DNA from: Anaerolineae bacterium
Lineage (GTDB): Bacteria > Chloroflexota > Anaerolineae > Aggregatilineales > Phototrophicaceae
Reading direction: 5' to 3'
NCBI GenBank assembly: GCA_022824465.1
Contig: JAJDZV010000005.1
Location: 62,001 to 126,000, forward strand
DNA length: 64,000 nt
A program made the translations under genes and the position numbers. Under the pieces are notes generated by a model, which saw only the letters and a program-made list of their open reading frames with translations, was not told where the DNA came from and made no database searches. Of the stretch, positions 30,528-50,933 are shown one piece after another. Each line of letters begins with the position of its first letter. Position 1 is the first letter of the stretch.

Positions 30528-30907
30528 TGGATCTGCTCCTTCTTTTCGGCCTGGCAGCCGTCATCGGCGCACTAGCCATAGCCGCTGTGATTATCTGGTC
30601 GACGCAACGGGCGGCCGCATCAGCCATAACCAGCTATTTCAAGGCGAGCGAATTTATCCTGGAAACTGGCCAGCCGCCTCCCGAGTGGCTGGCGCAAACC
30701 AAGCGCCGGCGTCTGTTTCGCGTGAATCGATCCCGCGCGTCGCATGCGGAACTGATGGCGCGCTTTGACGAGTTGGCGCGCTTCTTTGAAGGCTGCCGTT
30801 TCTTCGAGGACGAATGGGCGCGCGAGCAAATGCTGACGCAATTGGCGGCTATTCGCGAAAAGTGGCAGGATCGCGCGTTCACCTGCGCATCGATTGACAG
30901 ACTATAG
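30527..30907 (+). CDS. Small single-pass membrane protein, hypothetical
   Basis: ATG overlaps previous TGA (TGATGG); N-terminal TM helix followed by charged helical domain. Confidence 0.55.
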   Translation: MDLLLLFGLAAVIGALAIAAVIIWSTQRAAASAITSYFKASEFILETGQPPPEWLAQTKRRRLFRVNRSRASHAELMARFDELARFFEGCRFFEDEWAREQMLTQLAAIREKWQDRAFTCASIDRL

Positions 30908-32548
30908 CTTTCGCACATAAACGTAATACGCGCCGCGCTCGCGCTTGGACCTGGCATTCGAAAGCCGGGTGCTTAGCAATGTCGCGCCAGCGCCCAAGTC
31001 CACTTTGAAGACGGCGCTGCTGGCGCCTGGCTCAAGCGGCTGCTCCCACTCGACCTCGCCCACCTTTACAACGGCGCGATCAGCGCCTATGGGCTGATCG
31101 ACATTGATGGGATAGCTGCGCAATTCGACCTCGTAGCTGCCTGGCGCCGTCGCGTCTATGCGCCAGAATCCGTTAGCGTCAACCTCGGGCGAGTCGATCC
31201 AGCTTTGCATCCAAGGGACGCGGCCGCTTGTCGGATGCCAATCACGCGCCGATAGCAGTACCGGATCATGGCGAGTATCGCCAACGGGAATAGCGATGGT
31301 TTCAGAGAACGCGCCCTGCATATCCGCCCACCAGCGGTCGTAATCGCGTCGAAGCTCCGCCGCCCGCCCGTGATTTTCAGCCAAACGATTGCAGGTTTGC
31401 GCCGGATCTCGCTGGGTGTCGTAGAGTTCTCCGTCATTGATCAGGCGCCAGCGCCCCTTGAGCACAGCGGTATGATGCCACTTCGTCGGTTGGTCCGGCT
31501 GCAATTGAATTACAATCGAGCGCTCCGGTAAGACTGAGTCATCGCCGCGCATGAGATCCGCCAGGCTCAGCCCATCGAATTCAACAGTTGCAGCGGGCGC
31601 TAGATCGCAGAGTTCAAGCAAGGTCGGGAGGATATCAATATGGGCGGTAGCCTGGGGGATTCTTCGCGCAGCCGGGAGCGAGCCTTGCCAGCGCATAAAG
31701 AAGCTGACACGATGGCCGCCGTCATACACCGAGCCCTTCTTGCCGCGCATGCCGGCATTGTAGCCCTCGCCAGTTAGAGGGTCGTAACCGGCCGCTGTGC
31801 CATGGTCAGAGGTGAAGATTACGATAGTGTCTTCATCAAGTTGCAGTCGTTTCAAGAGTGTGAAAAGGCGGCCCATGTTTTCGTCGAAGTTTGCGATCAT
31901 GCCGTAGAAATTGGCGCGGTCCTCAGGAATTCCCAGCTTCTTGTAGGGCGCGGCGTATTGCTTAGGCACAATGAAGGGTGAATGCATGGCGTTTGTGGCC
32001 AGGTAAACGAAGAACGGTGATTGGGCGCTTGCGTTGATGAAGTCGAGCGCGGCCTCAAAGAAGACATCAGTGCAATAGCCCGCGCATTGTTCCGGCACGC
32101 CCTTGCGGAAGTAGGCGTCGTCGAAGTAGCTGTTGCCCCAGAAATCGGGCAATTCGCCGACGCCGCCGCCACGATGGCACAGGACGTCGTGAAAGCCACG
32201 AAATTCCGGGGCAAAGGGGTAGTTGTCTCCCAGATGCCATTTGCCGAACATGCCGCAGCGGTAGCCGTTTGCCGCGAAGTGGTCGGCCATTGTTAGCGCC
32301 TTGGGATTCAGCAGATGCCGTCCTTGAGTCACATGCCAGACGCCATTGCGAGCGGCGTATTGACCGGTAAGGAGCGCCGCGCGCGAGGGCGAACAAAGCG
32401 GATCGTGATGATGGTCATCGAGTTGGACGCTTTCGCGCGCCATCTGATCGAGGTTCGGCGTTTGCAGCAGCGGATTGCCGTGACAACCGATATCGCCGTA
32501 GCCTTGGTCGTCAGTGAAGACGAGTATCACGTTCGGCGATCGCGTCAT
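30902..32548 (-). CDS. Type I sulfatase (arylsulfatase family, formylglycine type)
   Basis: NVILVFTDDQGYGDIGCHGN, CSPSRAALLTGQYAARNG (C-x-P-x-R FGly motif), GKWHLGD, FTSDHGTAAG. Confidence 0.94.
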   Translation of the reverse strand: MTRSPNVILVFTDDQGYGDIGCHGNPLLQTPNLDQMARESVQLDDHHHDPLCSPSRAALLTGQYAARNGVWHVTQGRHLLNPKALTMADHFAANGYRCGMFGKWHLGDNYPFAPEFRGFHDVLCHRGGGVGELPDFWGNSYFDDAYFRKGVPEQCAGYCTDVFFEAALDFINASAQSPFFVYLATNAMHSPFIVPKQYAAPYKKLGIPEDRANFYGMIANFDENMGRLFTLLKRLQLDEDTIVIFTSDHGTAAGYDPLTGEGYNAGMRGKKGSVYDGGHRVSFFMRWQGSLPAARRIPQATAHIDILPTLLELCDLAPAATVEFDGLSLADLMRGDDSVLPERSIVIQLQPDQPTKWHHTAVLKGRWRLINDGELYDTQRDPAQTCNRLAENHGRAAELRRDYDRWWADMQGAFSETIAIPVGDTRHDPVLLSARDWHPTSGRVPWMQSWIDSPEVDANGFWRIDATAPGSYEVELRSYPINVDQPIGADRAVVKVGEVEWEQPLEPGASSAVFKVDLGAGATLLSTRLSNARSKRERGAYYVYVRKL

Positions 32549-32768: not shown

Positions 32769-33860
32769 TCAAGCATAACCGCCGCGATGATGTGAGCTTT
32801 CCCAACGAACGATGAAGTCCCAAGGTTCGTCGTTTGCCAGCAAGCCTAGCGGATCATGCCCTTGCACGACGTTGTGGGCGCTATAAGTCGCCACGTGGCT
32901 CAACCCCCAGCGCAAGCCGGAAAGCGGCTCGGCATTGTCGGCGTCCTCAACGCGCGTGGCGCCGGTAGCCTGTGGCGGCGCGATGATGGTCGCCTTTGGC
33001 TCGAAGTTGATGCCGTCTTGCGCGAACTGGATCGTATTCTTCTCAGGACCGCAGCGGGTGAGCAGGGCGCCGACCCCGCCGCTGTAATTCCAAACCATGA
33101 CTTCGTGGCCGCTGTTGGTGATTGGATTGAAAGGAGACTTCGTGTAGGGACCGCACGGATTATCGGCGATGGCGACGCCCCACATGCTGTGCATATTACT
33201 GTGTCCGATGCCTTCGCCTTTGAAGTAGAGCCAATACTGCCCATTGCGGTAGAGCAAGGCGGGATCATGGACGCGGAGGCTGTCGAACGTGCCCTTTACG
33301 GTGGCGTCAAGCGGATGGGCGCGCTCGTCAACTTCGCCAGACGGGTCTGGCTCGACGACGGGCGCGGGGCTTTTGGTCCAGGGTCCGCTCGGCGAATCGG
33401 ACCAAGCGATGGCGATGGACTCCGGCGTACAGCGCCAGGTAGGCGCGGCAGTGACTTGGTAAACCAGGTAGTAGCGTCCGTCATGCGCCAGGACATCGGG
33501 CGTGAAGACGCTGCGCTCGTCGTAGCTGCCGGCCGGTCCTCGTTCAACTGCTGGACCTTGCTCCTGCCAGGTATGGCCGTCTGCCGATGTCGCAAACCAG
33601 ACATCGGTAAGATCCCAAGGCATAGCGGGCAAGGCGTCTGTAGCGCGTTCGTGGCCGACTGGCGGGCAGGGATGGGCGCCGCGCGTGTACCAGACGTAGT
33701 AGAGACCGTCGACTTGAATGATGCAGCTGGGATCGCGACGGACAATGCCGCGCTCATAACCGAGACCAGGAGCGGGCATATAGCGGAAGCGTGTGAACCA
33801 GGGATTGTCTTCGTCGGGACCGTGGTATCGTTTGCTGGCGGCGCTTTGCATAAAAGTCAA
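32769..33860 (-). CDS. GH117-like glycoside hydrolase
   Basis: RRDPSCIIQVDGLYYVWYTRG, YDERSVFTPDVL, SDSPSGPWTKSPAPV, RVHDPALL, NPITNSGHEVMVWNYSGGVGALLTRCGPEKNTIQFAQDGINFE, WGLSHV: GH117 (neoagarobiose hydrolase) layout. Confidence 0.87.
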   Translation of the reverse strand: MTFMQSAASKRYHGPDEDNPWFTRFRYMPAPGLGYERGIVRRDPSCIIQVDGLYYVWYTRGAHPCPPVGHERATDALPAMPWDLTDVWFATSADGHTWQEQGPAVERGPAGSYDERSVFTPDVLAHDGRYYLVYQVTAAPTWRCTPESIAIAWSDSPSGPWTKSPAPVVEPDPSGEVDERAHPLDATVKGTFDSLRVHDPALLYRNGQYWLYFKGEGIGHSNMHSMWGVAIADNPCGPYTKSPFNPITNSGHEVMVWNYSGGVGALLTRCGPEKNTIQFAQDGINFEPKATIIAPPQATGATRVEDADNAEPLSGLRWGLSHVATYSAHNVVQGHDPLGLLANDEPWDFIVRWESSHHRGGYA

Positions 33861-33874
33861 TACTCCAGTAGCAA

Positions 33875-34960
33875 CTAGATATAGGTGCGGCGCTCGTCAT
33901 CGATTTCCCAGCGAACGAGGAAATCCCATGGTTCGTCGATATCGGCAAGCCCCAGCGGATCCGCGCCTTGCATGATGAGATGAGAGCTCCGCGGAATGAC
34001 ATGACTCAAGCCCCAGCGGAAACGCGCCAGCGGCTCGGTGTTTCGCGCTTCATCGACTCGATGGGGACCGGCGGCTTGCGGCGGCACAACCAACTGCGCC
34101 ATCACCTCAAAGTTGATGCCGTCGGCGGCGAACTGGAAGGTGTTTTTCTCCGGACCGCAGCGGTTAACCAGGCCGGCCACGCCACCTTCGTATGACCACA
34201 CTACCACCTCGTGTCCGCTGTTGGTGATCGGGTTGAAGAGCGATCGGGTGTAGGGACCGAAGGGCGAATCGGCAAGCGCCACGCCCCATTTGCTCTCCAT
34301 GTGATGGTAGCCGATGCCTTCGCCCTTATAGTAGAGCCAGAATTTCCCCTCGCGGTAAATCAGGGCGGGATCGTGGACTTGCAGGCTGTCCCAGGCGCCG
34401 CGTTCTATACAGTCTTCGGGGTCGCACCGTTCGTCGACCACGCCCGAGGGGTGGGGTTCAAGGATCGGCGACGGGCTCTTTGTCCAAGGTCCGCGAGGCG
34501 AGTCGGCCCAGGCAATGGCGATGGATTCCGGCGTGCTGCGAAAATTGGGCGAGCGCGCTACCTGGTAGACCATGTAATAGCGGCCCTCATGCAAGAGCAC
34601 ATCGGCGGTGAAGACGCCGCGCTCATCATAGGCGCCGACGCCTCCGCGCTCAACCGCAGGACCCTGCTCCACCCAGTTATGCCCGTCGACCGATGTGGCA
34701 TACCAGACATCAGCCAAGTCCCAAGGCGTGGCCGGCAGGGTGTCGGTCATGCGGTCGAAGCCAACCGGCGGACAAGGATGGGCGGCGCGGGTGTACCAGA
34801 TGAAATACTCGCCGTTTATCTGCAGAATGGCGCTGGGGTCGCGGCGGACGACGCCTTTCTCGTATCCCAAGCCGGTTATGGGACTGTATTTGAACTTTGC
34901 GTACCAGGGATTATCGCGATCGGGTTGGTGGAATCGTTGCATGGCGGCGCTTAAAGGCAT
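33875..34960 (-). CDS. GH117-like glycoside hydrolase
   Basis: Paralog of 32769..33860; start set at MPLSAAMQRFH (34960) preceded by AGGA, rather than the 35005 ORF start. Confidence 0.87.
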   Translation of the reverse strand: MPLSAAMQRFHQPDRDNPWYAKFKYSPITGLGYEKGVVRRDPSAILQINGEYFIWYTRAAHPCPPVGFDRMTDTLPATPWDLADVWYATSVDGHNWVEQGPAVERGGVGAYDERGVFTADVLLHEGRYYMVYQVARSPNFRSTPESIAIAWADSPRGPWTKSPSPILEPHPSGVVDERCDPEDCIERGAWDSLQVHDPALIYREGKFWLYYKGEGIGYHHMESKWGVALADSPFGPYTRSLFNPITNSGHEVVVWSYEGGVAGLVNRCGPEKNTFQFAADGINFEVMAQLVVPPQAAGPHRVDEARNTEPLARFRWGLSHVIPRSSHLIMQGADPLGLADIDEPWDFLVRWEIDDERRTYI

Positions 34961-34985
34961 AGTTTGTCCTTTCAAAAAGAAGCAA

Positions 34986-35011
34986 GGTGGTGCGACAGGC
35001 GTCACACCACC
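34986..35011 (-). other. Stem-loop between family-5 binding protein and GH117 gene
   Basis: ggtggtg...caccacc inverted repeat; on minus transcript followed by ttgcttcttttt. Confidence 0.5.
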
Positions 35012-35038: not shown

Positions 35039-37051
35039 TTAGTTGCTGCCGCCTTCGAAGTACCACTGTTCGGGCATGAACATGACCCATTGGCGGTAGC
35101 TCCATGCCCATTGACCGACAGTGTCGTTTGGCGGCGTGTTCTTCAAGTTGGTCTTGAAGAGTAGGGGCTGGGGCGGGCGCTGGATGGTGCCGATGATGTA
35201 GAGTCCGCCGAAGGAAGCGTTGTAGAAGGTTTTGCCGGTCTCGATCCATTCGTCAGTGCCGTAGGGGGCTTCCAGGAATTGCTCGCCAAGTTCCCAGAGT
35301 TCCTTGATCACTTCCGGCGGTTCTTCGCCATTTTCGCCGTCGCTGAGAATCCAGTCACGCCAGGGAATGCCGGAGGCGCGGTTGCCCCAACTGACACGGG
35401 TGTTGCCGAGTTGGCTGGCAACTTCACCGATATCCAGGATATCAGCTCCCCAGGCGGAGACATCAAGCTGGTTGCTGTTACGCAGCTCACGGAAGAGGCT
35501 GTCGCCGATGAGCTTGTACTGGGTTTTGACGCCGACTTCGTTCCAGTAGGAGCTGATCAACTCGCCGATTTGACGCCAGGCGTCTTCGGGGACATAGACC
35601 TGGAAGTTGATGAAGAGCGTTTCGCCGTCGGGGCGGAGGCGGAAGCCATCGCTATCGCGCTGGTCCAAGCCCATTTCGTCCAGGAGCTGGTTGGCCAGGT
35701 CGGGGTCATATTGGGCGTAGTGGGTGGTCATCCAGGGTTCGTAGAAGTTCGACGATGGCACAAGGGAGTTCTGTGAAGCATTGGCGAGACCGAAGTAGAC
35801 GAGTTCGTTGATCTCTTCGCGGTTGATGGCGACGGACATGGCTTGTCGGAAGCGGACATCCCAGAAGATCTCGCGCAGGGGCATATTTTCGGTGGTGAAG
35901 TTGAAGCCCAGGGCGTATTCATTGCCGCGGCTGTATTCAGCCAGGGCGGTGCGATAGCCGCCGGCTTCTTCATTTTCGCGATAGGTGGGGTAGCTGGCGA
36001 GGGTGCCCCAGCCGAAGTGGGTGTATTCGCCGGCGATGCCTTTGAGGTCCTGGACTTGCACATCTTCGACCAGGAGGCGGCGCAGGGTATCGGTATAGGG
36101 CAGTTGGTTGCCGGCGGTATCGACCTTGAAGAAGTAGGGGTTGCGCTCATAGAGCTTGTTGCCGAAAGCGTCTTCGCTGACGAAGACGAAGGTGTTGAGC
36201 GTGGGCGAATAGGGATCGGTTTCCGAGCCCAGGTTCCAGGTGAAGTTGTAGGTGTTCATCTTGGCGTTGAACATCTGGACCCAGTCTTCGAAGCCGAGTT
36301 CATCGGCGAGCGCATTGGCATCGGCGTTGTAGTCGAGGTGGTACTGCTGGAAGTAGTGTGAGGGGCGGAAGCCGCGGTGGCCGACCTCGCTGCCGAGTTG
36401 AATGATCAGGCCGTTGCGGGGTTCGGGATAGGTGAAGGTGATGGTGGTGTCGTCGATGATGTCCATTTGCGGCAGTTCGCCGTCGAGGACCCAGGGTCCG
36501 CCGGGCGCTGGCGTCAGGTCGGTATTGCCGAGCACGTCTTCAAAGTAGAAGCGGAAGTCTTCGGTGGTGAAGGGGGTGCCGTCGGACCATTTGTGGCCTT
36601 CGCGCAGGTGGAAGGTGAAGGTGGTCAGGTCGTCGGAGACTTCGTAGTCTTGGGCGATGTTGGGAACGATGGAAGCCAGGTCGGTGTCGATGGTGAGCAG
36701 CTTCTGCAAGCGCATCTCCAGGACATCCCAGCCGCAGCAATTGGGAAGGGCTGTTGGTCCTTTCAGTTCGCCGCCGTATTCGCCGATTTGCTCGAGCGGC
36801 TGGACGACGACGGGTTGTGCGGGCAGGCGCTCTTCAACCGGCGGCAGTTCGCCAGCGGCGACGCGTTCGGCCAGCATGGGCGGTTCGCCCCAAGAGTCAA
36901 TCGAGTTGCCGGTGGCGGCGGTGTAAGCGTCGAGGTCACCATATTGGAATGGATAGACGAGTTCGCCCTCGTGCATGACTTGCGCGAGCGTCCCGCCTGA
37001 TAGCAATATCAATGCGAAGAGGAGCGCGCTAGTAAAGATAATTCGCTTCAT
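35039..37051 (-). CDS. Family 5 extracellular solute-binding protein (Opp/Dpp-type)
   Basis: Signal peptide; LTTFTFHLREGHKWSDGTPFTTEDFRFYFEDV, VRFRQAMSVAINREEINELVYFGLA. Confidence 0.93.
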   Translation of the reverse strand: MKRIIFTSALLFALILLSGGTLAQVMHEGELVYPFQYGDLDAYTAATGNSIDSWGEPPMLAERVAAGELPPVEERLPAQPVVVQPLEQIGEYGGELKGPTALPNCCGWDVLEMRLQKLLTIDTDLASIVPNIAQDYEVSDDLTTFTFHLREGHKWSDGTPFTTEDFRFYFEDVLGNTDLTPAPGGPWVLDGELPQMDIIDDTTITFTYPEPRNGLIIQLGSEVGHRGFRPSHYFQQYHLDYNADANALADELGFEDWVQMFNAKMNTYNFTWNLGSETDPYSPTLNTFVFVSEDAFGNKLYERNPYFFKVDTAGNQLPYTDTLRRLLVEDVQVQDLKGIAGEYTHFGWGTLASYPTYRENEEAGGYRTALAEYSRGNEYALGFNFTTENMPLREIFWDVRFRQAMSVAINREEINELVYFGLANASQNSLVPSSNFYEPWMTTHYAQYDPDLANQLLDEMGLDQRDSDGFRLRPDGETLFINFQVYVPEDAWRQIGELISSYWNEVGVKTQYKLIGDSLFRELRNSNQLDVSAWGADILDIGEVASQLGNTRVSWGNRASGIPWRDWILSDGENGEEPPEVIKELWELGEQFLEAPYGTDEWIETGKTFYNASFGGLYIIGTIQRPPQPLLFKTNLKNTPPNDTVGQWAWSYRQWVMFMPEQWYFEGGSN

Positions 37052-37266: not shown

Positions 37267-38409
37267 TCAGCCTGTGACTTCAAAGTCGCGTAATTGGTCC
37301 CAATCAAATTGGACGCCGTGCCCGGGCACATCAGGCGCGCGCATAATGCCATCGCGCAACTGCGGCGGGTTAGTGATGAAGCGTTCCAAGCCAAAGCTAT
37401 GGACTTCCAAGTACGACGCGTTGGGTATGGCAGCCAGGAGGTGCAGATGCAACTCATGGACGCCATGTGATGTCACCTGCAAGTTGTGGGCATAAGCCAG
37501 CTTGGCCACGCGCATCCAATTGGTGATGCCGCCGATATTGGAAACATCGGGCTCGGGAAAGGCGATCTTGCCGATCTCGATCGAGTGGCGAAATTCAAAG
37601 ATGGTGTGCAGGTTTTCCCCGGCGGCGATAGGCAAGCCACCCTCGGCGGCGATCCGCGCCATGCCTTGATAGTCGTCGGGAATGGTCGGCTCTTCGAACC
37701 AAAACACATCGTATTCGCTAAAGGCTCGCGCCGCCCGGATTGCCTGTTCGACCGACCAACGCATATTGGCATCGACCATGAGCGGGAGATCTGGACCGAG
37801 GCATTCGCGCACGGCCCGCACTCGCGCGATGTCTTCGGAGAGCTTGTCGCGCCCGACTTTGATTTTTATCGCGCGGAAACCTTTCTGCAGGTTGCAGAGT
37901 GTCTGCTCGATCAATTCGTCGGGGTTGAGTTGGAGGTCGATGCCGCCGGCATAAGCGCGCGCCTCGCCCGAGAATCCGCCCAGCATTTTCCAGAGCGGCT
38001 GGCAATCGGTTTGTCCACGCAAGTCCCAAAGGGCGATATCTACGGCGGACATGGCGAAGGAAACCAATCCACCGCGGCCGATATAATGCAGGCAGCGCCA
38101 CATGCGCTCCCAGGTCTGTTCTATGCGGCGGGCGTCGGCGCCAAGCAGCAACGGCTTCAAATCCCGCTCGATCAAGGCAGCGATCGCCGCGCCGCCACGC
38201 CCGATGGTGTAGGTGTAACCGTAGCCAGCGCAGCCGCACTGTGACTCCAGCCGGACGACCACGACTTCAAAGTCGGTATGCAGGCCGTGGGTTGCGTCCG
38301 TCATAGGGTGGCTGAGCGGCAAGCGGTAGAGCTTAGTTTCGATGTATCGCACGAACATGTTAGGCACCATCGCGGCAGCAAGGGCCGCAACTGAATCAAG
38401 ACGCTTCAT
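37267..38409 (-). CDS. Enolase-superfamily enzyme, probable 3,6-anhydro-L-galactonate cycloisomerase
   Basis: GRGGLVSFAMSAVDIALWDLRGQ, AYAGGIDLQLNPDELIEQTL, IKIKVGRDKLSEDIARVRAVRECLGPDLPLMVDANMRWSVEQAI, WFEEPTIPDDYQGMARIA, AAGENLHTIFEF; resembles the Vibrio cycloisomerase as I recall it. Start may be 38358 (MFVRYIE). Confidence 0.8.
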   Translation of the reverse strand: MKRLDSVAALAAAMVPNMFVRYIETKLYRLPLSHPMTDATHGLHTDFEVVVVRLESQCGCAGYGYTYTIGRGGAAIAALIERDLKPLLLGADARRIEQTWERMWRCLHYIGRGGLVSFAMSAVDIALWDLRGQTDCQPLWKMLGGFSGEARAYAGGIDLQLNPDELIEQTLCNLQKGFRAIKIKVGRDKLSEDIARVRAVRECLGPDLPLMVDANMRWSVEQAIRAARAFSEYDVFWFEEPTIPDDYQGMARIAAEGGLPIAAGENLHTIFEFRHSIEIGKIAFPEPDVSNIGGITNWMRVAKLAYAHNLQVTSHGVHELHLHLLAAIPNASYLEVHSFGLERFITNPPQLRDGIMRAPDVPGHGVQFDWDQLRDFEVTG

Positions 38410-38594: not shown

Positions 38595-39593
38595 ATGAAG
38601 AACTACTTGTTTAAGCGTTTCGTTTATATGGTTTTTCTTCTGTGGTTGGTTTCGGTTGTTACCTTCATCGTAATTGAATTGCCGCCGGGCGATTATTTGT
38701 CCACCTACATTATCCTGCTTGAACAGAATACGGGGCAGCAACTCAGCGAGGACATCGTTGAGCGGCTTCGGCGGCAGTATGGTCTCGACTTGCCGACATA
38801 CGCTCGGTATTTCAAGTGGTTTGGACAGGTGCTTCAGGGCGAGTTTGGCTTCTCATTTGATTGGCAACAGCCGGTCCGCGACATAATCGGCGAGCGGCTT
38901 GTGTTGACCTTTACCATCGCGATATTGAGCGCGATATTCACGTACGCGGTAGCGATTCCAATCGGGATTTATTCTGCGACGCATCAGTATTCCTTTGGCG
39001 ATTATTTGGTGTCCATCATCGGCTTTGTCGGCTTAGCCATACCGAATTTCATGTTGGCTCTGATCATGCTTTACGTAGGCTTTAAGCAATTCGGCGTGAA
39101 CCTATCCGGTCTTTTTTCTCCGGATTACCTGGACGCGCCATGGAATCTGGCAAAGATTGGCGATTTGTTGTTGCACCTGCCGATTCCGATTATCGTCATC
39201 GGAACCGGCGGAACAGCCGGCTTAATTCGCGTATTGCGCGGAACATTGCTGGATGAGCTTAACAAGCAGTATGTAATCACGGCGCGCAGCAAGGGCGTCG
39301 GCGAAGTACGGCTTCTATTCAAGTATCCGGTTAGAGTGGCGCTGAATCCCATCGTCAGCAGTCTCGCCTGGCTGTTTCCTTCGCTGGTTTCGGGGGGAAC
39401 GATAACTGCGATTGTCCTGGGCCTGCCGACGGCGGGACCGATGCTATTGCGCGCTCTGCTCGCGCAGGACACCTTCCTCACGGCGACGCTGCTTATGTTC
39501 ATCACGATTCTCACCGTGATAGGCACGACGGTATCCGATATCTTGCTGGTGGTAGTGGATCCGCGTATACGCATGGAACGCGCGGCCAGCTAG
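38595..39593 (+). CDS. Oligopeptide/dipeptide-type ABC permease (DppB/OppB-like)
   Basis: YLFKRFVYMVFLLWLVSVVTFIVIELPPGDY; RVLRGTLLDELNKQYVITARSKGVGE EAA loop. Confidence 0.93.
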   Translation: MKNYLFKRFVYMVFLLWLVSVVTFIVIELPPGDYLSTYIILLEQNTGQQLSEDIVERLRRQYGLDLPTYARYFKWFGQVLQGEFGFSFDWQQPVRDIIGERLVLTFTIAILSAIFTYAVAIPIGIYSATHQYSFGDYLVSIIGFVGLAIPNFMLALIMLYVGFKQFGVNLSGLFSPDYLDAPWNLAKIGDLLLHLPIPIIVIGTGGTAGLIRVLRGTLLDELNKQYVITARSKGVGEVRLLFKYPVRVALNPIVSSLAWLFPSLVSGGTITAIVLGLPTAGPMLLRALLAQDTFLTATLLMFITILTVIGTTVSDILLVVVDPRIRMERAAS

Positions 39594-39605
39594 ACGGGTT
39601 GGATC

Positions 39606-40751
39606 ATGTGGCGACGACTGCTTGGCAGGCAGAAGAGCAACGAGCCTACAACTGGTCAATACGACGAGAGCTACTATCTGGCGTCGCAATGGCAGTTGAT
39701 GTGGCGCAAGTTCCGCCGCCACCGTTTGGCGATGGTTTCGCTTGTCGTCATACTCTTCTTGTATTCGCTGGCGCTTTTCGCCGAATTCTATTCGATAAAC
39801 GATCACCACAGGCGCCATGTCAAGTATGCGAAAGCGCCGCCGCATACCTTGTATTTCGTCGATGAAGACGGCAAGTTTCACCTTGTTCCCTTCATATACG
39901 ATCTCAAGCAAGAGCTCGATTTGGATACCCTGCAGCGCAATTACACCGAGGATCGCTCGAAGCGTTTTCATCTGCGCTTCTTTGTTGAGGGCGAGCCGTA
40001 CAAGCTCTTGGGTTTGCTGGAGAGCAATATCCACCTGGTCGGCGTCGATCAGCCAGCGGTGTTCTTTCCTTTTGGGACCGATGATTTGGGGCGAGACTTG
40101 TTCTCGCGCACGATGTACGCGGCGAGGATTTCCCTTTCCATAGGTGTATTTGGGGTCGTGATCAGCTTCGTATTGGGCTGCCTCATCGGCGGCATTTCCG
40201 GTTACTTTGGCGGCACGGTTGATCTTATCATTCAACGCGTCATTGAGTTCATCATATCAATTCCGCATATTCCGCTGTGGATTGCGCTTGCGGCCGCTCT
40301 GCCTGCCGAGTGGAGTTCGACGCAAGTCTACTTCGGCATTACGATCGTGTTGGCGACGGTCGGCTGGACGACGCTGGCGCGCGCCGTCCGCGGCAAGCTG
40401 CTGGAATTGCGCGAGGCGGACTTTGTTATGGCGGCGCGGATTTCCAATATGGGCGACTTCGACATTATCGTGAAACACCTGCTGCCGTCCTTCGCGAGCT
40501 TCTTGATCGTGGTGCTCAGCCTGTCGGTGCCGGGCATGATCCTGGCGGAGACGGCGCTTAGCTTCTTGCGGATTGGAATCCAGCCGCCAGCCGTGAGTTG
40601 GGGCGTACTTCTGCAGGACGCGCAAAATATACGCAGTTTGAGCCAGAGCCCATGGCTGCTGATTCCCGGTTTATTTGTAATCGTCACGGTACTGGCTTTC
40701 AACTTTCTAGGCGACGGCTTGCGTGATGCGGCCGATCCGTATAAACAGTAG
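39606..40751 (+). CDS. Oligopeptide/dipeptide-type ABC permease (DppC/OppC-like)
   Basis: WRKFRRHRLAMVSLVVILFLYSLALFAEF; GTDDLGRDLFSRTMYAARISLSIG; READFVMAARISNMGDFDIIVKHLLPS. Confidence 0.93.
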   Translation: MWRRLLGRQKSNEPTTGQYDESYYLASQWQLMWRKFRRHRLAMVSLVVILFLYSLALFAEFYSINDHHRRHVKYAKAPPHTLYFVDEDGKFHLVPFIYDLKQELDLDTLQRNYTEDRSKRFHLRFFVEGEPYKLLGLLESNIHLVGVDQPAVFFPFGTDDLGRDLFSRTMYAARISLSIGVFGVVISFVLGCLIGGISGYFGGTVDLIIQRVIEFIISIPHIPLWIALAAALPAEWSSTQVYFGITIVLATVGWTTLARAVRGKLLELREADFVMAARISNMGDFDIIVKHLLPSFASFLIVVLSLSVPGMILAETALSFLRIGIQPPAVSWGVLLQDAQNIRSLSQSPWLLIPGLFVIVTVLAFNFLGDGLRDAADPYKQ

Positions 40752-41466: not shown

Positions 41467-42483
41467 ATGACAAAAGCAGCCTACTACCTGGGCGACCATA
41501 CGATTCGTCACGGACCAGGTGAGATAATCGAACCGAAGAGCGGCGAGGTTCAGCTTAAGGTATCACATTGCGGCATCTGCGGCACGGACCTGCACATCTA
41601 CCACGGCGCGATGGACGCTCGTGTCAAGATGCCCTTGGTCATGGGACATGAGATGTCGGGGACGGTGCAATCTGTCGGTGATGGCGTTGTCAATTTCGCC
41701 GCGGGCGATAAAGTGGTTGTCATGCCGCTAGCCCCATGTGGCGACTGCCCCGCTTGCGCCACCGGACATAGCCATATCTGCCATAATCTGAACTTCCTCG
41801 GCATTGACACGCCGGGCGCATTCCAAAGCTATTGGACAGTGCCGGCCTACACCTTGCACAGGATGCCGGAACATCTCTCTCTGGCGCATGGCGCCTTGAT
41901 AGAGCCGCTGGCGGTCGCCGCGCACGATGTGCGGCTGGCCGGAGTGAAAGCTGGCGATGAAGTTGTGGTGCTGGGCGGCGGACCCATCGGATTGCTCGTC
42001 GCCTTGGTGGCGCGGCAAGCTGGCGCTCGTGTACTCGTATCCGAGATCAATCCTTACCGCGTCGAGTTGGCTATGCGTCTCGGTTTGGATGCGATCAATC
42101 CAAATGAGGCGGATCTAATCAAGCTGGTCATGCAGCGCACAAGCGGCGCCGGCGCCGATATTGTCTTTGAGGTGTCGGGTTCGCAAGCTGGCGCATCGGT
42201 CATGACTGAATTGCTGCGCACACGTGGACTGGCAGTGGTGGTGGCGATATTTGCGCGGAAGCCTGAGGTCGATCTTTTTCGTTTCTTCTGGCGCGAATTG
42301 CGCTTGCAGGGCGTACGGGTTTATGAATCCGAAGATTTCACCGCTGCGATTGAACTGGCTGCCTCCGGCGTCTTGCCGCTAGACGATCTAATCACCGATA
42401 TCCGTCCGCTGAGCGCTTTGAAGTCTGGTTTCAAGGATTTGGATAGGGGCGGGCGCGTGATGAAGATACTTCTGGAGCTCTAA
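41467..42483 (+). CDS. Zinc-dependent alcohol/polyol dehydrogenase (MDR family)
   Basis: CGICGTDLHIYHGAMDARVKMPLVMGHEMSGTV, GGGPIGLLVALVARQAGA. Confidence 0.92.
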   Translation: MTKAAYYLGDHTIRHGPGEIIEPKSGEVQLKVSHCGICGTDLHIYHGAMDARVKMPLVMGHEMSGTVQSVGDGVVNFAAGDKVVVMPLAPCGDCPACATGHSHICHNLNFLGIDTPGAFQSYWTVPAYTLHRMPEHLSLAHGALIEPLAVAAHDVRLAGVKAGDEVVVLGGGPIGLLVALVARQAGARVLVSEINPYRVELAMRLGLDAINPNEADLIKLVMQRTSGAGADIVFEVSGSQAGASVMTELLRTRGLAVVVAIFARKPEVDLFRFFWRELRLQGVRVYESEDFTAAIELAASGVLPLDDLITDIRPLSALKSGFKDLDRGGRVMKILLEL

Positions 42484-43254
42484 ATGAAGGTACTGCAGAG
42501 TTTTCGTCTGGACGGGAAGACAGCGCTGGTTACCGGCGCGCGCCGCGGCATCGGGCGGGCAATGGCGAATGCCCTGGCGGAGGCGGGCGCGGATATTATC
42601 GCGGTCAGCGCCAACCTTGAGGCGACCGGCAGTGATATCGAACAAGAGGTTACCAGGCTGGGCCGACGCTTTGCTGGCTACCGCTGCGACTTTTCCCATC
42701 GTGATGACGTCTATCGTTTTGTCCAGCGGGTGACTGCTGACCATCCGGCGATAGACATCCTGGTCAACAACGCCGGCACGGTAGTGCGTGAGCCGGCTGA
42801 GAACCACTCTGACGAATATTGGGACAGAATCATAGAGACCAACCTCAGCGCCCAATTCGTGCTCAGCCGTGAATTGGGCAAGCGGATGCTTGAGCGCGGT
42901 CGGGGCAAGATCATCTTTACCGCGTCGCTTCTAACCTTCCAGGGCGGTATAACTGTGCCTGGTTATGCGGCGAGCAAAGGCGGCATCGGGCAGTTGACCA
43001 AGGCGCTCGCCAACGAGTGGGCGGGACGGGGCGTCCAGGTCAACGCGATCGCGCCTGGTTATGTGCGCACGGATGTCACCGAAGCGCTGCAAAATGATCC
43101 TGATCGTTACCGCGCCATTCTCGAACGGATTCCCGCCGGACGCTGGGGCAACATTGATGATTTCAAGGGTCCGGCGGTCTTCCTGGCTTCGGCCGCTTCA
43201 GATTTTGTGAACGGCGAGATCCTGGTGGTCGATGGCGGTTGGATGGGGCGCTAA
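42484..43254 (+). CDS. SDR oxidoreductase, KduD-like (2-keto-3-deoxy sugar acid dehydrogenase)
   Basis: TGARRGIGRAMANALAEAGAD, NNAGTVVREPAENHSDEYWDRIIETNLSAQF, LTFQGGITVPGYAASKGGIGQLTKALANEWAGRGVQVNAIAPGYVRTDVTEAL, RIPAGRWG, VDGGWMGR, KduD-type. Confidence 0.88.
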   Translation: MKVLQSFRLDGKTALVTGARRGIGRAMANALAEAGADIIAVSANLEATGSDIEQEVTRLGRRFAGYRCDFSHRDDVYRFVQRVTADHPAIDILVNNAGTVVREPAENHSDEYWDRIIETNLSAQFVLSRELGKRMLERGRGKIIFTASLLTFQGGITVPGYAASKGGIGQLTKALANEWAGRGVQVNAIAPGYVRTDVTEALQNDPDRYRAILERIPAGRWGNIDDFKGPAVFLASAASDFVNGEILVVDGGWMGR

Positions 43255-43292: not shown

Positions 43293-44567
43293 TCAAGTCC
43301 CGATTGTTGACCGGTCGAATTCGGACTGTTGCGCCAGGATCTGCTTGCGCCACTCGTCCGGCAGTTGAGCAATCGGCTGAAACCAACTGTCTTCGTGCCA
43401 GTGCAGATTACTTCGTTTGAATTCTTGCCGATTGCTGTCGCGCGACAGCTCACAATCAAAGCGCACGATGTAGAGCCCTTTGTTCGTGTTGGGTGTCTGC
43501 GGATGGATGTGGCTCAAACCCCAGGTAATACCGCGTCCGTCGCCATTGTCAGCGAACGCGTCAGGGCAGAAGGGACCGGGCGCGTGAGGCGAAAGCTGGA
43601 CGTGCGCCTTTGGTTCGAAATTTAGTCCATCCGGCGCGAATTGCACGGTATCTTTTTCCGGACCATCCTGGATGAGCAAGGCGGCGATGCCACCCTCGTA
43701 GGGCCACAACATTGTTTCATGACCGGAATTGGTCACCGGATTCAAATCCGGTTTTACGAAGGGCCCTTCGGGATGCTCGGCGATTGCCACGCCTTGCGCC
43801 AGCCTTAAGCTGCCGGGCGACTTATCGGCCGGCGAGCCTTTGTAATAGAGCCAAATCTTGCCCTGATAGATCAAGGGATAAGGGTCGTGGATGGCGCAAC
43901 TGTCCCAATCGCCGGGCAAGCCTTGTGGAATCACCGGCCGGTCAAGACGCGTCCACGGACCATCCGGCGAATCTGACCAGGCGGCGCTGACGTTAACGCA
44001 GTCGTTCTGACGCCACATCGTGGTGAAGGTCTGATAATAGAGATAGTAGCGCCCCTTGAAAACCAGGATATCCGGCGTCGAAAGCGATCGGTCGCCATAG
44101 GAGCCTTTGGGCGCGCGCGGCACGGCGACGCCCTGCTCCACCCAGTCAAAACCGTCTTTAGAGGTAGCGTAGCATATGTCGGCGAGATCCCAATCGACCA
44201 CCGGTATTTCGTTATTCGCCTTGTCGATATTGAAACGCCCAACCGGCATAAACTTCGTGCGTCGCCGCGTATACCACACATAGTAGGTATCGCCAATTTT
44301 GAGAACTTTCGACGGATCCCGCCGAGACACCGAAAGTTCGGTCTCATCCTTTCCGATGCCCGTGACCCGCGAATATCTGAATGTTGTATAGAATGGGTTG
44401 CCGATATCTTGTCTGGGCGTCCACCTATCGTAGACCCGCGCCATCGCCGCGCTCAGCGGTCGGTCAGTCGGTTTTTCCAGCGGCAACTTGCCAGGGAATG
44501 CTCCTCTTGATTCGCTCATTACTCCTCCTGAATTACTGGATTGCCGCAAAGCGCGCTGCCTCAACAA
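43293..44567 (-). CDS. GH117-like glycoside hydrolase
   Basis: SRRDPSKVLKIGDTYYVWYTRRRT, YGDRSLSTPDILV, AIHDPYPLI, NPVTNSGHETMLWPYEGGIAALLIQDGPEKDTVQFAPDGLNFE, WGLSHI. Start may be downstream at MSESRGAFPG. Confidence 0.85.
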   Translation of the reverse strand: MLRQRALRQSSNSGGVMSESRGAFPGKLPLEKPTDRPLSAAMARVYDRWTPRQDIGNPFYTTFRYSRVTGIGKDETELSVSRRDPSKVLKIGDTYYVWYTRRRTKFMPVGRFNIDKANNEIPVVDWDLADICYATSKDGFDWVEQGVAVPRAPKGSYGDRSLSTPDILVFKGRYYLYYQTFTTMWRQNDCVNVSAAWSDSPDGPWTRLDRPVIPQGLPGDWDSCAIHDPYPLIYQGKIWLYYKGSPADKSPGSLRLAQGVAIAEHPEGPFVKPDLNPVTNSGHETMLWPYEGGIAALLIQDGPEKDTVQFAPDGLNFEPKAHVQLSPHAPGPFCPDAFADNGDGRGITWGLSHIHPQTPNTNKGLYIVRFDCELSRDSNRQEFKRSNLHWHEDSWFQPIAQLPDEWRKQILAQQSEFDRSTIGT

Positions 44568-44673: not shown

Positions 44674-46248
44674 ATGAACGTTGCCGATTATATCGTCATC
44701 GGCGCCGGGTCTGCGGGCGCGGCGGTAGCGGGCCGTCTGAGCGAAAGCGGCCGCTTCACTGTGCTGCTGCTTGAAGCGGGCGGACCGGATTCCAATCCGA
44801 ATATTCATATTCCAGCGCGATTTTCTGACTTATTTCACAGCGATATCGATTGGGATTATGTGACCGTTCCGCAGCCCGGTCTGAATGGACGCCGGGAGTA
44901 CGTGCCGCGGGGCAAGGTTTTCGGCGGCACCAGCTCAATGAACGCCATGGTCTATCAGCGCGGACATCCCTCGGATTACGATCGCTGGGCGGCGGGTGGC
45001 AACAGTGGCTGGGCTTATGACGAGTTGCTGCCCTACTTCCGTAAGATGCAGCATCAGGAGCGCGGCGAATCGGCGAATCACGGCGTCGGGGGGCCGATCA
45101 ATGTGGCTGATCTGCAAGACCCCAATCCGCTGAGTCATGCATTCGTGGCGGCGGCGCTGACATTGGGCTTTCGCCACAATGCCGACTTCAATGATGGCGA
45201 GCAGGAAGGCTTTGGTCTCTACCAAGTGACGCAGAAAGACGGACGGCGACATAGCTCGGCGGTGGGCTATTTGCGGCCCGCCTTAAAGCGAGAAAACTTC
45301 AGCGCCCTGCCCCTCGCCCGAGCCACAGAGCTGGATGTCAAGAGCGGACGCTGCGTCGGCGTCAGGTATCTGCATGAGGGCGCAGAAAAGACTGCGCGCG
45401 CCGTTCAGGAAGTCATCGTCTGTGGCGGCGCCATTAATTCACCCCAACTGCTGATGCTTTCGGGGATCGGACCGCGCGATCATCTTTTGGATAAAGGCAT
45501 AGAAGTGATCCAAGACCTGCCCGGCGTCGGACAGAACCTGATGGATCATATGCAAGTCCCCTTGGCCTATCACTGCAAAGAGCCAGTCAGCCTGGTCGGT
45601 AAGGAATCAGCCGGGCAGCTAAGACAGTATCAGCAGAGCCGGATGGGCTTATTGACGTCTAATTTGGGCGAGGCGGGCGGGTTCGTACGCTTGAACGCGG
45701 ATTCGACTGCGCCGGAATTGCAATATCATTTTGGTCCGGACTGGTTCATCCGCCACGGCTTCGAAACGCCCGACGGCCACGGCTTTACCATTCTGGCTGG
45801 CATGGTCAGCACCAAAAGCATCGGCGAACTTAGGTTGCGGTCGGCGAGTCTTTTAGCGCCACCTCTCATTGACTTCGCTTGTCTCAGCCGCGATGAAGAC
45901 GTTCAGACGCTATTGGCAGGCATTAGATTGGGGCGCGAGATCGCTTCCGCCACAACCTTCGATCGCTATCGCGGCGATGAGTTTTTGCCGGGGGCTGGCG
46001 TCGCCTCTGATGAAGATCTCACGCATTATATTCGAGAATTCGCCACCACCATTTATCATCCGGCGGGCAGCTGCAAGATGGGCAGCGATCGTATGGCGGT
46101 TGTGGATGAGCGCCTCCGCGTCAGAGGCATCGAAGGCTTGCGCGTAGCTGACGCATCGATAATGCCGCATATCATCAATGCCAATACCAACGCGCCTTGC
46201 ATCATGATCGGCGAAAAGGCCGCCGCTATGATTCTTGAGGATTCCTAA
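44674..46248 (+). CDS. GMC-family FAD-dependent oxidoreductase
   Basis: YIVIGAGSAGAAVAGRLSE, RGKVFGGTSSMNAMVYQRG, GAINSPQLLMLSGIGP, NTNAPCIMIGEKAAAMIL. Confidence 0.94.
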   Translation: MNVADYIVIGAGSAGAAVAGRLSESGRFTVLLLEAGGPDSNPNIHIPARFSDLFHSDIDWDYVTVPQPGLNGRREYVPRGKVFGGTSSMNAMVYQRGHPSDYDRWAAGGNSGWAYDELLPYFRKMQHQERGESANHGVGGPINVADLQDPNPLSHAFVAAALTLGFRHNADFNDGEQEGFGLYQVTQKDGRRHSSAVGYLRPALKRENFSALPLARATELDVKSGRCVGVRYLHEGAEKTARAVQEVIVCGGAINSPQLLMLSGIGPRDHLLDKGIEVIQDLPGVGQNLMDHMQVPLAYHCKEPVSLVGKESAGQLRQYQQSRMGLLTSNLGEAGGFVRLNADSTAPELQYHFGPDWFIRHGFETPDGHGFTILAGMVSTKSIGELRLRSASLLAPPLIDFACLSRDEDVQTLLAGIRLGREIASATTFDRYRGDEFLPGAGVASDEDLTHYIREFATTIYHPAGSCKMGSDRMAVVDERLRVRGIEGLRVADASIMPHIINANTNAPCIMIGEKAAAMILEDS

Positions 46249-46251
46249 GCC

Positions 46252-48789
46252 ATGAGCAAACTGAGCAGCGACTTGCCCAGGCTGCCGGGGGAGCCGAGCA
46301 GCGAGAGGCCGGCGGATCGACAGTTAAGCGCCGCCAGCGAGCGCCTCTATGACAAGTGGGGACGCTTTCAAGACTCGACAAGCGAGTTCTACACGACTTT
46401 CAAATACAGCCAAATTACTGGGATTGGCAAAGAAGCTGGCGTGACCCGGCGCGACCCGTCGACTGTGCTGCGGATTGAAGACACGTACTACGTCTGGTAT
46501 ACGCGCCGCAAGACCGCGGATGATCGCAATCCGCAGAATAAGCCGCCACACCGCGTTCAAAGCTGGGATACGCCGGTATTTGACTGGGACCTGGCGGAAA
46601 TCTGGTACGCCACCTCGGAAGACGGCTTCCACTGGCAAGAACAGGGTGTGGCAGTGAAGCGCGGACCCAGAGACGCTTACGACGGACGCTCGGTCTTCAC
46701 GCCCGATGTGCTGATGGCGGGCGACAAATTCTATCTCTATTATCAGGCGGTCGATTACCCTTACCGAACGCGAACCCGCAACACTGTTGGCATGTCTTGG
46801 GCAGAGTCGCCTGATGGTCCCTGGCAGCGCGCCGAGGCGCCACTACTTCTGCCCGGCGAAGCCGGCGAATGGCTGGGCGACGATGACTCCGACGAGGTCC
46901 GGCGTTATGGCGCTTGGGATAGCCACAAAGTGCACGACCCTTTCATTCTTATGCGCGAGGGCAAGTACTGGCTCTATTACAAAGGGCAGCCGATGGGCTG
47001 GACGACGCGGTATGCGCGCGGTATTGGCTGGGGTGTGGCTGTCGCCGATAAGCCAGAGGGACCATTTGTCAAGTCGCCGCTGAATCCTGTCACAAACAGC
47101 GGTCACGAGACCTGTCTCTTCCCGTACGGTGAAGGCTTGCTCGCCATTTGCGGTCATGACGGACCGGAGAAAGATACGATTCAGTATGCGCGGGATGGGC
47201 TGAACTTTGATGTTGTGGCGCATGTCACGCTGCCGCCATTGGCTGCAGGACCGTTCGCGCCAGATTCCTACAAGAGTACTCGTGACGGCAAGGGCGTTAT
47301 CTGGGGGCTGTCTCACATCGCGACGGAGGAGATGAAAACAGGGAATTCCTATATCGTGCGTTTCGATTGCAATTTGCGGCGCGACCTTGAACGGTCCGGT
47401 TTTCGTGGCACGAACATACGCTTTCCCGAAGAGGTGTATTTCTCACCTGATCTGGAACTGAACCAAGGGAATATGGAGGAACCGAGATACTTCAACGCGC
47501 CAGTTCGACCATCGGAAGCGCGACCTTCGGGACCTATCAGCCGGACGATGAGGCGGGTATACGACAGGTATGGCGTCCGCAAAGACCAGGGCAGTGACTT
47601 CTTCTCCGCCTTCAGATATTGCGCGCTGTCTGGCATTGGCAAAGAATTTGGGGTGACGCGGCGCGATCCATCCAAAGTAATCAAGGTCGGCGACCTCTAC
47701 TATGTTTGGTACACGCGGAGGCAGACTGCGACCACATGGCGCGGCATAGCCTATGCGAGCGAGTCCCGACCGGCCTGGGATTGGGATATGGCGGACATCT
47801 GGTTTGCCACGTCATCGGATGGCTTTCACTGGACGGAGCGTGGCTGCGCCGTCCGCCGCGGCGAAAATGGCGACTTCGATGATCGCTCGGTTTTCACGCC
47901 CGATCTCCTGATCCACAACAACAAGTATTATCTTTACTATCAAGTCATAAGCGGCGTCTGGAAGCATAGAACGCCCCACCAGCTCGGGATGGCTTGGTCC
48001 GATTCGCCCGCTGGTCCCTGGACCAAGCTGGGCAATCCCGTGCTGCGTCCAGGACGGCGCGGTGAATTTCTCGGTGACGCAGACGATGCTGACGCGATCG
48101 CCAGTTTCGGCGACTGGGATTCTCACAAATTGCATGATCCCTATTTGCTAAAATATCGAGGGCAAATCTGGCTGTATTACAAAGGCGTTCAGTACGGCCG
48201 AACGTATCGGCACGACTTGGGCATCGGCTGGGGCGTTGCAACTGCCGACGATCCCTGCGGTCCCTTTGTCAAGTCGCCGTTGAACCCGGTAACTAACAGC
48301 GGGCACGAGACGTTTCTGTATCCATTTCGCGAAGGCATTGTAGCCATTACGAGTCACGAAGGTCCCGAGAAGAACACCGTACAGTACGCACCGGACGGAT
48401 TGAATTTCGAAGTTGTCGGAAAAGTGAGCGCGCCGCCGGTCGCCGCCGGTCCCTTCGTGCCCGACGCCTTTGCCAGCAATGGCGATGGGCGTGGCATCAC
48501 TTGGGGCTTGGCGCATGTTCAGCACGATAATGATGGTCCGTTATCCCACGGCTACCTTGTCCGCTTCGACTGTAACTTAAGCCGAGACGCGCAGCGAGCT
48601 GATTTTTACCGCGCCTGGAATTACCGGTTCCCGGAGTCGGTCTACTTCAGCCGCGATTTCGCCCTGAGCGAGGCGATGCGAGACGAAGCGCTCGAACTAA
48701 TGGCCACCGTGGACGAGGATACTGCGGCGCCATCTCGACGAGCGAGACCAGTGACCTCGTCTAGCGAGTGTTGCGGCGCGGTGCGTTAG
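46252..48789 (+). CDS. Tandem two-domain GH117-like protein
   Basis: Two full GH117-like modules in one 845-aa ORF; each has RRDPS, DxRSVFTPD(V/L)L, (V/L)HDP, NP(V)TNSGHET, GPEK(D/N)T and GL(S/A)H. Confidence 0.88.
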   Translation: MSKLSSDLPRLPGEPSSERPADRQLSAASERLYDKWGRFQDSTSEFYTTFKYSQITGIGKEAGVTRRDPSTVLRIEDTYYVWYTRRKTADDRNPQNKPPHRVQSWDTPVFDWDLAEIWYATSEDGFHWQEQGVAVKRGPRDAYDGRSVFTPDVLMAGDKFYLYYQAVDYPYRTRTRNTVGMSWAESPDGPWQRAEAPLLLPGEAGEWLGDDDSDEVRRYGAWDSHKVHDPFILMREGKYWLYYKGQPMGWTTRYARGIGWGVAVADKPEGPFVKSPLNPVTNSGHETCLFPYGEGLLAICGHDGPEKDTIQYARDGLNFDVVAHVTLPPLAAGPFAPDSYKSTRDGKGVIWGLSHIATEEMKTGNSYIVRFDCNLRRDLERSGFRGTNIRFPEEVYFSPDLELNQGNMEEPRYFNAPVRPSEARPSGPISRTMRRVYDRYGVRKDQGSDFFSAFRYCALSGIGKEFGVTRRDPSKVIKVGDLYYVWYTRRQTATTWRGIAYASESRPAWDWDMADIWFATSSDGFHWTERGCAVRRGENGDFDDRSVFTPDLLIHNNKYYLYYQVISGVWKHRTPHQLGMAWSDSPAGPWTKLGNPVLRPGRRGEFLGDADDADAIASFGDWDSHKLHDPYLLKYRGQIWLYYKGVQYGRTYRHDLGIGWGVATADDPCGPFVKSPLNPVTNSGHETFLYPFREGIVAITSHEGPEKNTVQYAPDGLNFEVVGKVSAPPVAAGPFVPDAFASNGDGRGITWGLAHVQHDNDGPLSHGYLVRFDCNLSRDAQRADFYRAWNYRFPESVYFSRDFALSEAMRDEALELMATVDEDTAAPSRRARPVTSSSECCGAVR

Positions 48790-50138: not shown

Positions 50139-50933
50139 TTGACAAGCAAAACGGCTGACAAATCAGGTTACAGAATGCGTTTCCCTAATCTGACGCAAGT
50201 GGTCTTGTCGACGCTGCAATCGTCGATTTCCCCCGGAATAGCGCGTGCAAATCACGACGAGGGGCATCGGCTGAGAGCCAAGATTCTAGGCGTCATTATT
50301 AGAAAGGCGCGGCAAGATGTAGAACTTTCGGCTGAAGATTGCGCGCGCTATCTGGGCGAGCCGCCCAAAACTATTGAGGCATGGGAATACGGCCAGAGCG
50401 CGCCAAGTTTAGCGCAGTTGGAAAGTTTGGCTGATTGCTTCCAATTGTCTAACGGCAGCGAACTACTTGGGCAGCGCCCACACAAACTTGGCGAATATGC
50501 GCGTCTGCGGCAACGGTTGGCAGGCGCTTTGCTGCGGTCGGCGCGGCGAGCAAACGACAACAGCCTGCGCGATTTAGGCGCGCAAACGGGCTTGGATGCA
50601 GAGCTACTGACACGCTACGAATTTGGCGAAACCGCGATACCGGTGCATCATCTCGCTATTCTCGCGCGAGCTTTGGGGCGGGACATCAGCTACTTTGAAG
50701 ACAGCGCTGACTTAGGTCGCCGGGTGATGGAAGATAAGCTCGGCGAGACGATCCGAGCCAATGATGATGAAGCCCAGATAAAGGAGTTCGCCGCGGACGG
50801 TCGCAACGAGCCGTTTATTCGTTTGGCAATGGCTTTTCGGGACATTGACCGCGACGATCTTGGTCGGCTTGCATCCGCGCTTGCCGCAATTATAAGAGAA
50901 CGTCGCGACTCCAACGGCCTGCCTCCAGCATGA
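50139..50933 (+). CDS. XRE-type regulator with two tandem HTH domains
   Basis: IRKARQDVELSAEDCARYLGEPPKTIEAWEYGQSAPSLAQLESLADCF and LLRSARRANDNSLRDLGAQTGLDAELLTRYEFGETAIPVHHLAILARAL. Confidence 0.75.
   Translation: MTSKTADKSGYRMRFPNLTQVVLSTLQSSISPGIARANHDEGHRLRAKILGVIIRKARQDVELSAEDCARYLGEPPKTIEAWEYGQSAPSLAQLESLADCFQLSNGSELLGQRPHKLGEYARLRQRLAGALLRSARRANDNSLRDLGAQTGLDAELLTRYEFGETAIPVHHLAILARALGRDISYFEDSADLGRRVMEDKLGETIRANDDEAQIKEFAADGRNEPFIRLAMAFRDIDRDDLGRLASALAAIIRERRDSNGLPPA

Follow-up and report, generated by a model that had tools for sequence, protein, structure and literature searches.

The 64,000-nucleotide stretch of Anaerolineae (Chloroflexota) DNA analysed here, referred to below as the window, encodes an 845-residue protein (46252..48789, + strand) in which two diverged GH117 modules follow one another in a single chain. 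Enzymes of this family act on sugars of red-algal agar and normally consist of two subunits. This tandem is real, conserved and old, and the GH117-GH117 arrangement is a new architectural variant of the family. The best supported reading is that the protein is a covalent pseudo-dimer, and its genetic surroundings point to a cluster for the catabolism of 3,6-anhydro-L-galactose (AHG) in an uncultured, probably sponge-associated Chloroflexota lineage.

The tandem gene, its distribution and its age

The open reading frame (ORF) runs from an ATG at 46252 to a stop codon at 48787-48789 and has no internal stops. Its N module (aa 1-411; 46252..47484, +), which has its own N-terminal helix, and its C module (aa 412-845; 47485..48789, +) are both assigned to the GH117 propellers by tree, site alignment and predicted structure. 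They share 53% identity over 399 aligned residues, and both match the solved GH117 enzymes 4ak5, 4u6d, 3p2n and 3r4y by sequence (E 1e-80 to 1e-87). The first-pass annotation had described two complete GH117-like modules in one ORF, both retaining the RRDPS, HDP, NSGHE and GL(S/A)H blocks, and this description holds: the frame is uninterrupted, sequence and fold matches cover both modules and each block occurs twice. RRDPS lies at aa 66 (46447..46461, +), where it carries the general base D90, and at aa 470 (47659..47673, +), HDP at aa 228 and aa 628, SGHE at aa 283 (47098..47109, +), with the general acid H302 and E303, and at aa 683 (48298..48309, +), and GLSH and GLAH at aa 352 and aa 752, respectively. 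The Pfam Glyco_hydro_43 model also matches the tandem above its cut-off; membership of GH43 was rejected, as the GH117 structures match with E values of 1e-80 or better versus about 1e-5 for GH43. NCBIfam names (arabinosidase and others) all fell far below cut-off, and a search of BFVD returned no close relative.

A contig scan recovered the tandem protein from about 30 Chloroflexota metagenome-assembled genomes (MAGs) at 73-89% best-segment identity, nearly always as one ORF, with a length of about 824-890 aa in independent MAGs. In an order-wide whole-genome search it was found in 31 genomes of the same genus, in one of which it is split over two contig ends. The gene order OppC - GntR - ADH - SDR - single GH117 (reverse) - GMC - tandem is kept at most of these loci. 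The proposal that an assembly or frameshift error has joined two neighbouring genes could draw on GH117 genes that sit next to each other at another place in the window and also in a different phylum, yet it is refuted, with a negligible probability left to it, by about 30 independent assemblies in which this ORF recurs undivided; the neighbouring gene pair is moreover a separate clade and does not represent unfused parents. The assembly fusion at the module junction that the first-pass annotation had wanted excluded is thus excluded by these other MAGs and by the conserved order after the GMC gene.

Divergent tandems occur in two further lineages, namely another genus of the same family (genome G049, locus L048) and UBA3499/UBA3001 (loci L030 and L031). 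No tandem was found in the other two genomes of G049's genus, and a 399-genome sample of the phylum contained no GH117 above threshold outside the window's own genome. The UBA3499 tandem (L030, 156-2774; L075, 9725-12343) has an extra Cys-rich, zinc-ribbon-like stretch between its modules (CRCGFEQINSDSRVCGRCG). From the names of the MAG series (e.g. COS and RHO; sponge species of PMC8163846) we infer that the carrier lineage probably lives in marine sponges. Expanded carbohydrate degradation has been described for sponge-symbiont Anaerolineae and Caldilineae (PMC6306507).

In a domain tree of 68 rows, the N halves form one clade (support 100/99) and the C halves form another, apart from the long-branch C half of UBA3499; the AU test does not reject a single clade that takes in every C half (p = 0.33). 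Because the N halves are one clade and the C halves very nearly one, the fusion is old, and the separation of the two clades bears out the earlier statement that the modules are clearly diverged and do not stem from a recent duplication. The best tree places N and C halves as sisters with weak support (73/34), and alternatives to this placement are not rejected. Both halves are under purifying selection, with a median dN/dS of about 0.07 in the N half and about 0.09 in the C half at dS values near saturation; median dN is 0.146 in the C half versus 0.111 in the N half. Single GH117 proteins of the P0004 type cluster with Zg3615 and Zg3597 in the same tree, and the adjacent gene pair of the window clusters beside clade A (BpGH117, ZgAhgA and SdNABH). 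The pair consists of a clade-A-like gene of 376 aa (33875..35005, -) and a second gene of 363 aa (32769..33860, -), both recognized by domain, tree and site analyses, with 65% identity between them and Cys at position 320 in each. It was considered as the unfused ancestor of the tandem and rejected, since it is a clade of its own. This second GH117 duplication, kept as adjacent genes, is represented by the window pair and by loci L043-L062.

Catalytic residues, dimer residues and predicted fold

In BpGH117 numbering, D90 acts as the base and H302 as the acid, paired with D320, while D245 and E303 are further key residues; single mutation of E303, D90, D245, E167 or H302 inactivates the enzyme (PMC11574756). 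All N halves, and all C halves except that of G049, retain D90, D245, H302 and E303, and the equivalent of E167 is Asp in all tandem halves, as it is in Zg3615. Position 320 differs by class: it is Asp in the N halves (32/32; Asp303 in the window, 47158..47160, +, with its role taken from PMC11574756), Glu in the non-degenerate C halves (32/32; Glu703 in the window, 48358..48360, +), Asp in single GH117s (29/29) and Cys in the pair genes (35/35). Asn is found here in two gammaproteobacterial clade-B rows, so the position is not strictly invariant in GH117. The four paralogue classes with Asp, Glu or Cys at the dyad position provide natural variants for the proposed His/Asp dyad mechanism. The first-pass annotation had raised two specificities in one chain, which the class-specific D320/E320 difference suggests as a possibility.

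The GH117 dimer signature comprises the Arg of an SxAxxR motif, a Glu and a Gln (PMC11595537), which were mapped to R56, E323 and Q328, with Glu286 and Gln291 assigned to E323 and Q328 according to how far they lie from the catalytic Glu. In the window the motif reads SAASER in the N module (aa 26-31; 46327..46344, +) and SRTMRR in the C module (aa 430-435; 47539..47556, +), where it lies within the linker region and a helix is predicted at 431-440; its middle Ala is replaced by Thr in this C half. Every tandem has the Ser and Arg of SxAxxR, E323 and Q328 unchanged in both of its halves, and this extends to the degenerate C half of the G049 protein (L048, 3677-6394). This C half, known from one genome, has the changes H244Q, H302R, E303A and D320A and retains all four of these dimer residues. 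It offers a natural, ready-made test of how catalysis and the partner role can be separated.

In solved GH117 dimers the N-terminal helices are swapped and the +1 subsite receives a His from the partner subunit (PMC5849685, PMC11574756, PMC9728383); this His (H392) sits in a C-terminal region that gave no alignment to the tandem clade. One GH117 enzyme, Ahg943, has been reported to be monomeric (PMC9728383), and pairing is therefore not obligatory within the family. AlphaFold modelling of the tandem gave a pLDDT of 64.5 and a pTM of 0.47 with tandem sequences only (29 sequences), and a pLDDT of 81.9 and a pTM of 0.86 over the whole chain when single-module homologues, which appear aligned to the C half, were added. 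In a chain with two equal domains, a pTM of 0.86 implies a defined mutual placement of the two propellers. The best PDB matches of the model are all GH117 structures (five-bladed propeller fold), led by Zg3615 (4u6d; TM 0.89, 2.8 A, 407 columns), a match that would fit a helix and tail lying as they do in the swapped crystal chain. The earlier idea that a covalent tandem would mimic the swapped dimer thus gains from two sides, the invariance of the dimer-swap residues in the alignment and the confident inter-propeller placement in the model.

Gene neighbourhood and proposed mechanism

The tandem starts 3 nt after the stop codon of a GMC oxidoreductase gene (44674..46248, +), which domain search and locus comparison identify as its conserved direct upstream neighbour. 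Further upstream are a single-module GH117 of 424 aa that is nearest to Zg3615 by domain, tree and site analyses (43293..44567, -), a short-chain dehydrogenase (SDR) near KduD, just below the KduD cut-off (42484..43254, +), a Zn-type alcohol dehydrogenase (41467..42483, +) and OppB/OppC-type ABC permeases (38595..40751, +), followed by an enolase-superfamily protein (37267..38409, -), a family 5 solute-binding protein that is probably an importer component (35039..37051, -) and, beyond the GH117 pair, a sulfatase (30902..32548, -). On the other side of the tandem, a 264-aa ORF with two HTH domains (50139-50933, +) precedes an 801-aa ORF that has no Pfam matches. The enolase-superfamily protein is a homologue of 3,6-anhydro-L-galactonate cycloisomerase (5xd7, E = 2.7e-116), which is its second-best solved relative after the putative racemase 2ovl; the cycloisomerase works in the AHG catabolic pathway (PMC9147760). 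Homologues of it occur near GH117 genes in three lineages: the window, G118 and UBA3499/UBA3001. Those outside the window lie at 7289-8377 in L076 and near 6760-7840 in L030/L031. The scanned part of the window showed no dedicated AHG (aldehyde) dehydrogenase. The genome as a whole has a single GH16-type domain, a single weak GH2 match and four ALDH-family matches; none of these lies in the window, and the ALDH-family matches are on other contigs. No evident signal peptide was seen by eye in any GH117 ORF of the window, the tandem included. From the cycloisomerase and importer genes and the apparent lack of signal peptides, the substrate is most likely an imported AHG-ended oligosaccharide, and the cluster context supports a putative exo-alpha-1,3-(3,6-anhydro)-L-galactosidase activity of the tandem.

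We consider it probable that the tandem recreates the swapped GH117 homodimer as a covalent pseudo-heterodimer, which would work on AHG ends in the cytoplasm. Each half would form a GH117 propeller whose N-terminal helix packs onto the other half, so that the swap becomes intramolecular and each half helps to complete the substrate entrance of the other. The protein would remove terminal alpha-1,3-linked AHG, or a close relative of it, from imported oligosaccharides, and the freed sugar would be oxidized and then passed to the cycloisomerase encoded in the cluster. Fusion would lock two different subunits in a 1:1 pairing and permit them to diverge, and the halves, with a classical His/Asp dyad in the N half and His/Glu in the C half, may divide the labour between them. 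As the partner subunit completes the +1 subsite, fusion would separate catalysis from completion of the partner genetically, and each role could therefore mutate alone.

In favour of the pseudo-heterodimer, the dimer residues survive in the G049 C half, which has lost H302, E303 and D320. Their presence in both halves of all tandems, this degenerate one included, speaks against two independent catalytic domains arranged like beads on a string, whose fusion would serve only to co-express two specificities (one for AHG, say, and one for a substituted or different anhydro- or L-galactose) and form no functional pseudo-dimer, as does the confidently predicted inter-domain arrangement. We regard this alternative as unlikely, even though it would accommodate the full set of catalytic residues in both halves of almost all tandems, which yet differ at D320, and has precedent in GH117 modules fused to unrelated modules elsewhere. 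It is less probable still that the C half serves in all species mainly as a structural partner, a pseudo-enzyme in the making, with turnover by the N half only: the replacement of the dyad partner Asp by Glu in the C half of every species, its somewhat faster evolution and the loss of catalytic residues in G049 would fit such a role, yet D90, D245, H302 and E303 persist in all 32 other C halves, although a domain with a structural role alone would have no use for them. A further reading, tentative and less likely than not, is that fusion turned the homodimer into an asymmetric intramolecular one: one of the halves would be drifting from a second active site (His/Glu) towards a purely trans-acting partner for the +1 subsite of the other, with G049 as the end point.

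Comparison with known GH117 systems

The literature searched on GH117 in sponge Chloroflexota, GH117 domain swapping and double GH117 proteins, with few subscription papers among it, contains no description of a tandem, and the phrase 'two GH117 domains' is absent from it. Among the listed GH117 ORFs of 47 gammaproteobacterial genomes (31 from the family of G548 and 16 from that of G551) and 10 plasmid records, no second GH117 tandem was found. Longer proteins do exist there: a Gilvimarinus-family genome encodes GH117 ORFs of about 840-960 aa with other N-terminal modules, and in Gayadomonas a 797-aa ORF (L074, 2012-4405, -) combines a sulfatase with a GH117-like module that has diverged and carries GNHE in place of SGHE. 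Such fusions to other modules make it incorrect that GH117 is always single-module, and the corresponding sentence of the first-pass annotation was too strong. These multi-modular gammaproteobacterial ORFs resemble the tandem in their longer chain, but the partner is never a second GH117. GH117 gene pairs also recur outside Chloroflexota: in the Gilvimarinus-family genome G1121, two adjacent GH117 genes overlap (L079, 672-3048, -), the second ORF having HGP for HDP. Gilvimarinus also has GH117 paralogues (L039, L040 and L042, near 6001-7158) in which HGP replaces HDP, NSCHE replaces NSGHE and position 320 is Asn; judging from these substitutions, they are probably altered or inactive.

The VejACI-type cycloisomerase pathway has its counterpart in the cycloisomerase homologue of the tandem cluster, but no AHG aldehyde dehydrogenase gene is seen beside it. 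The clade A enzymes (BpGH117, BuGH117B, ZgAhgA and SdNABH) have the catalytic residues and the SxAxxR/Glu/Gln signature in common with the tandem, the halves of which are 43-45% identical to BpGH117; they differ in being unfused, swapped homodimers of identical subunits (PMC9728383, PMC5849685) and in E167, which is Asp in the tandem. Zg3615 (4u6d) and Zg3597 (4u6b) of Zobellia galactanivorans, with about 40-42% identity to each tandem half, share with it the fold (TM 0.89 to 4u6d), the C-terminal extension and the catalytic and dimer residues, whereas they are single-module enzymes and the tandem consists of two diverged modules, the second of which has Glu at position 320.
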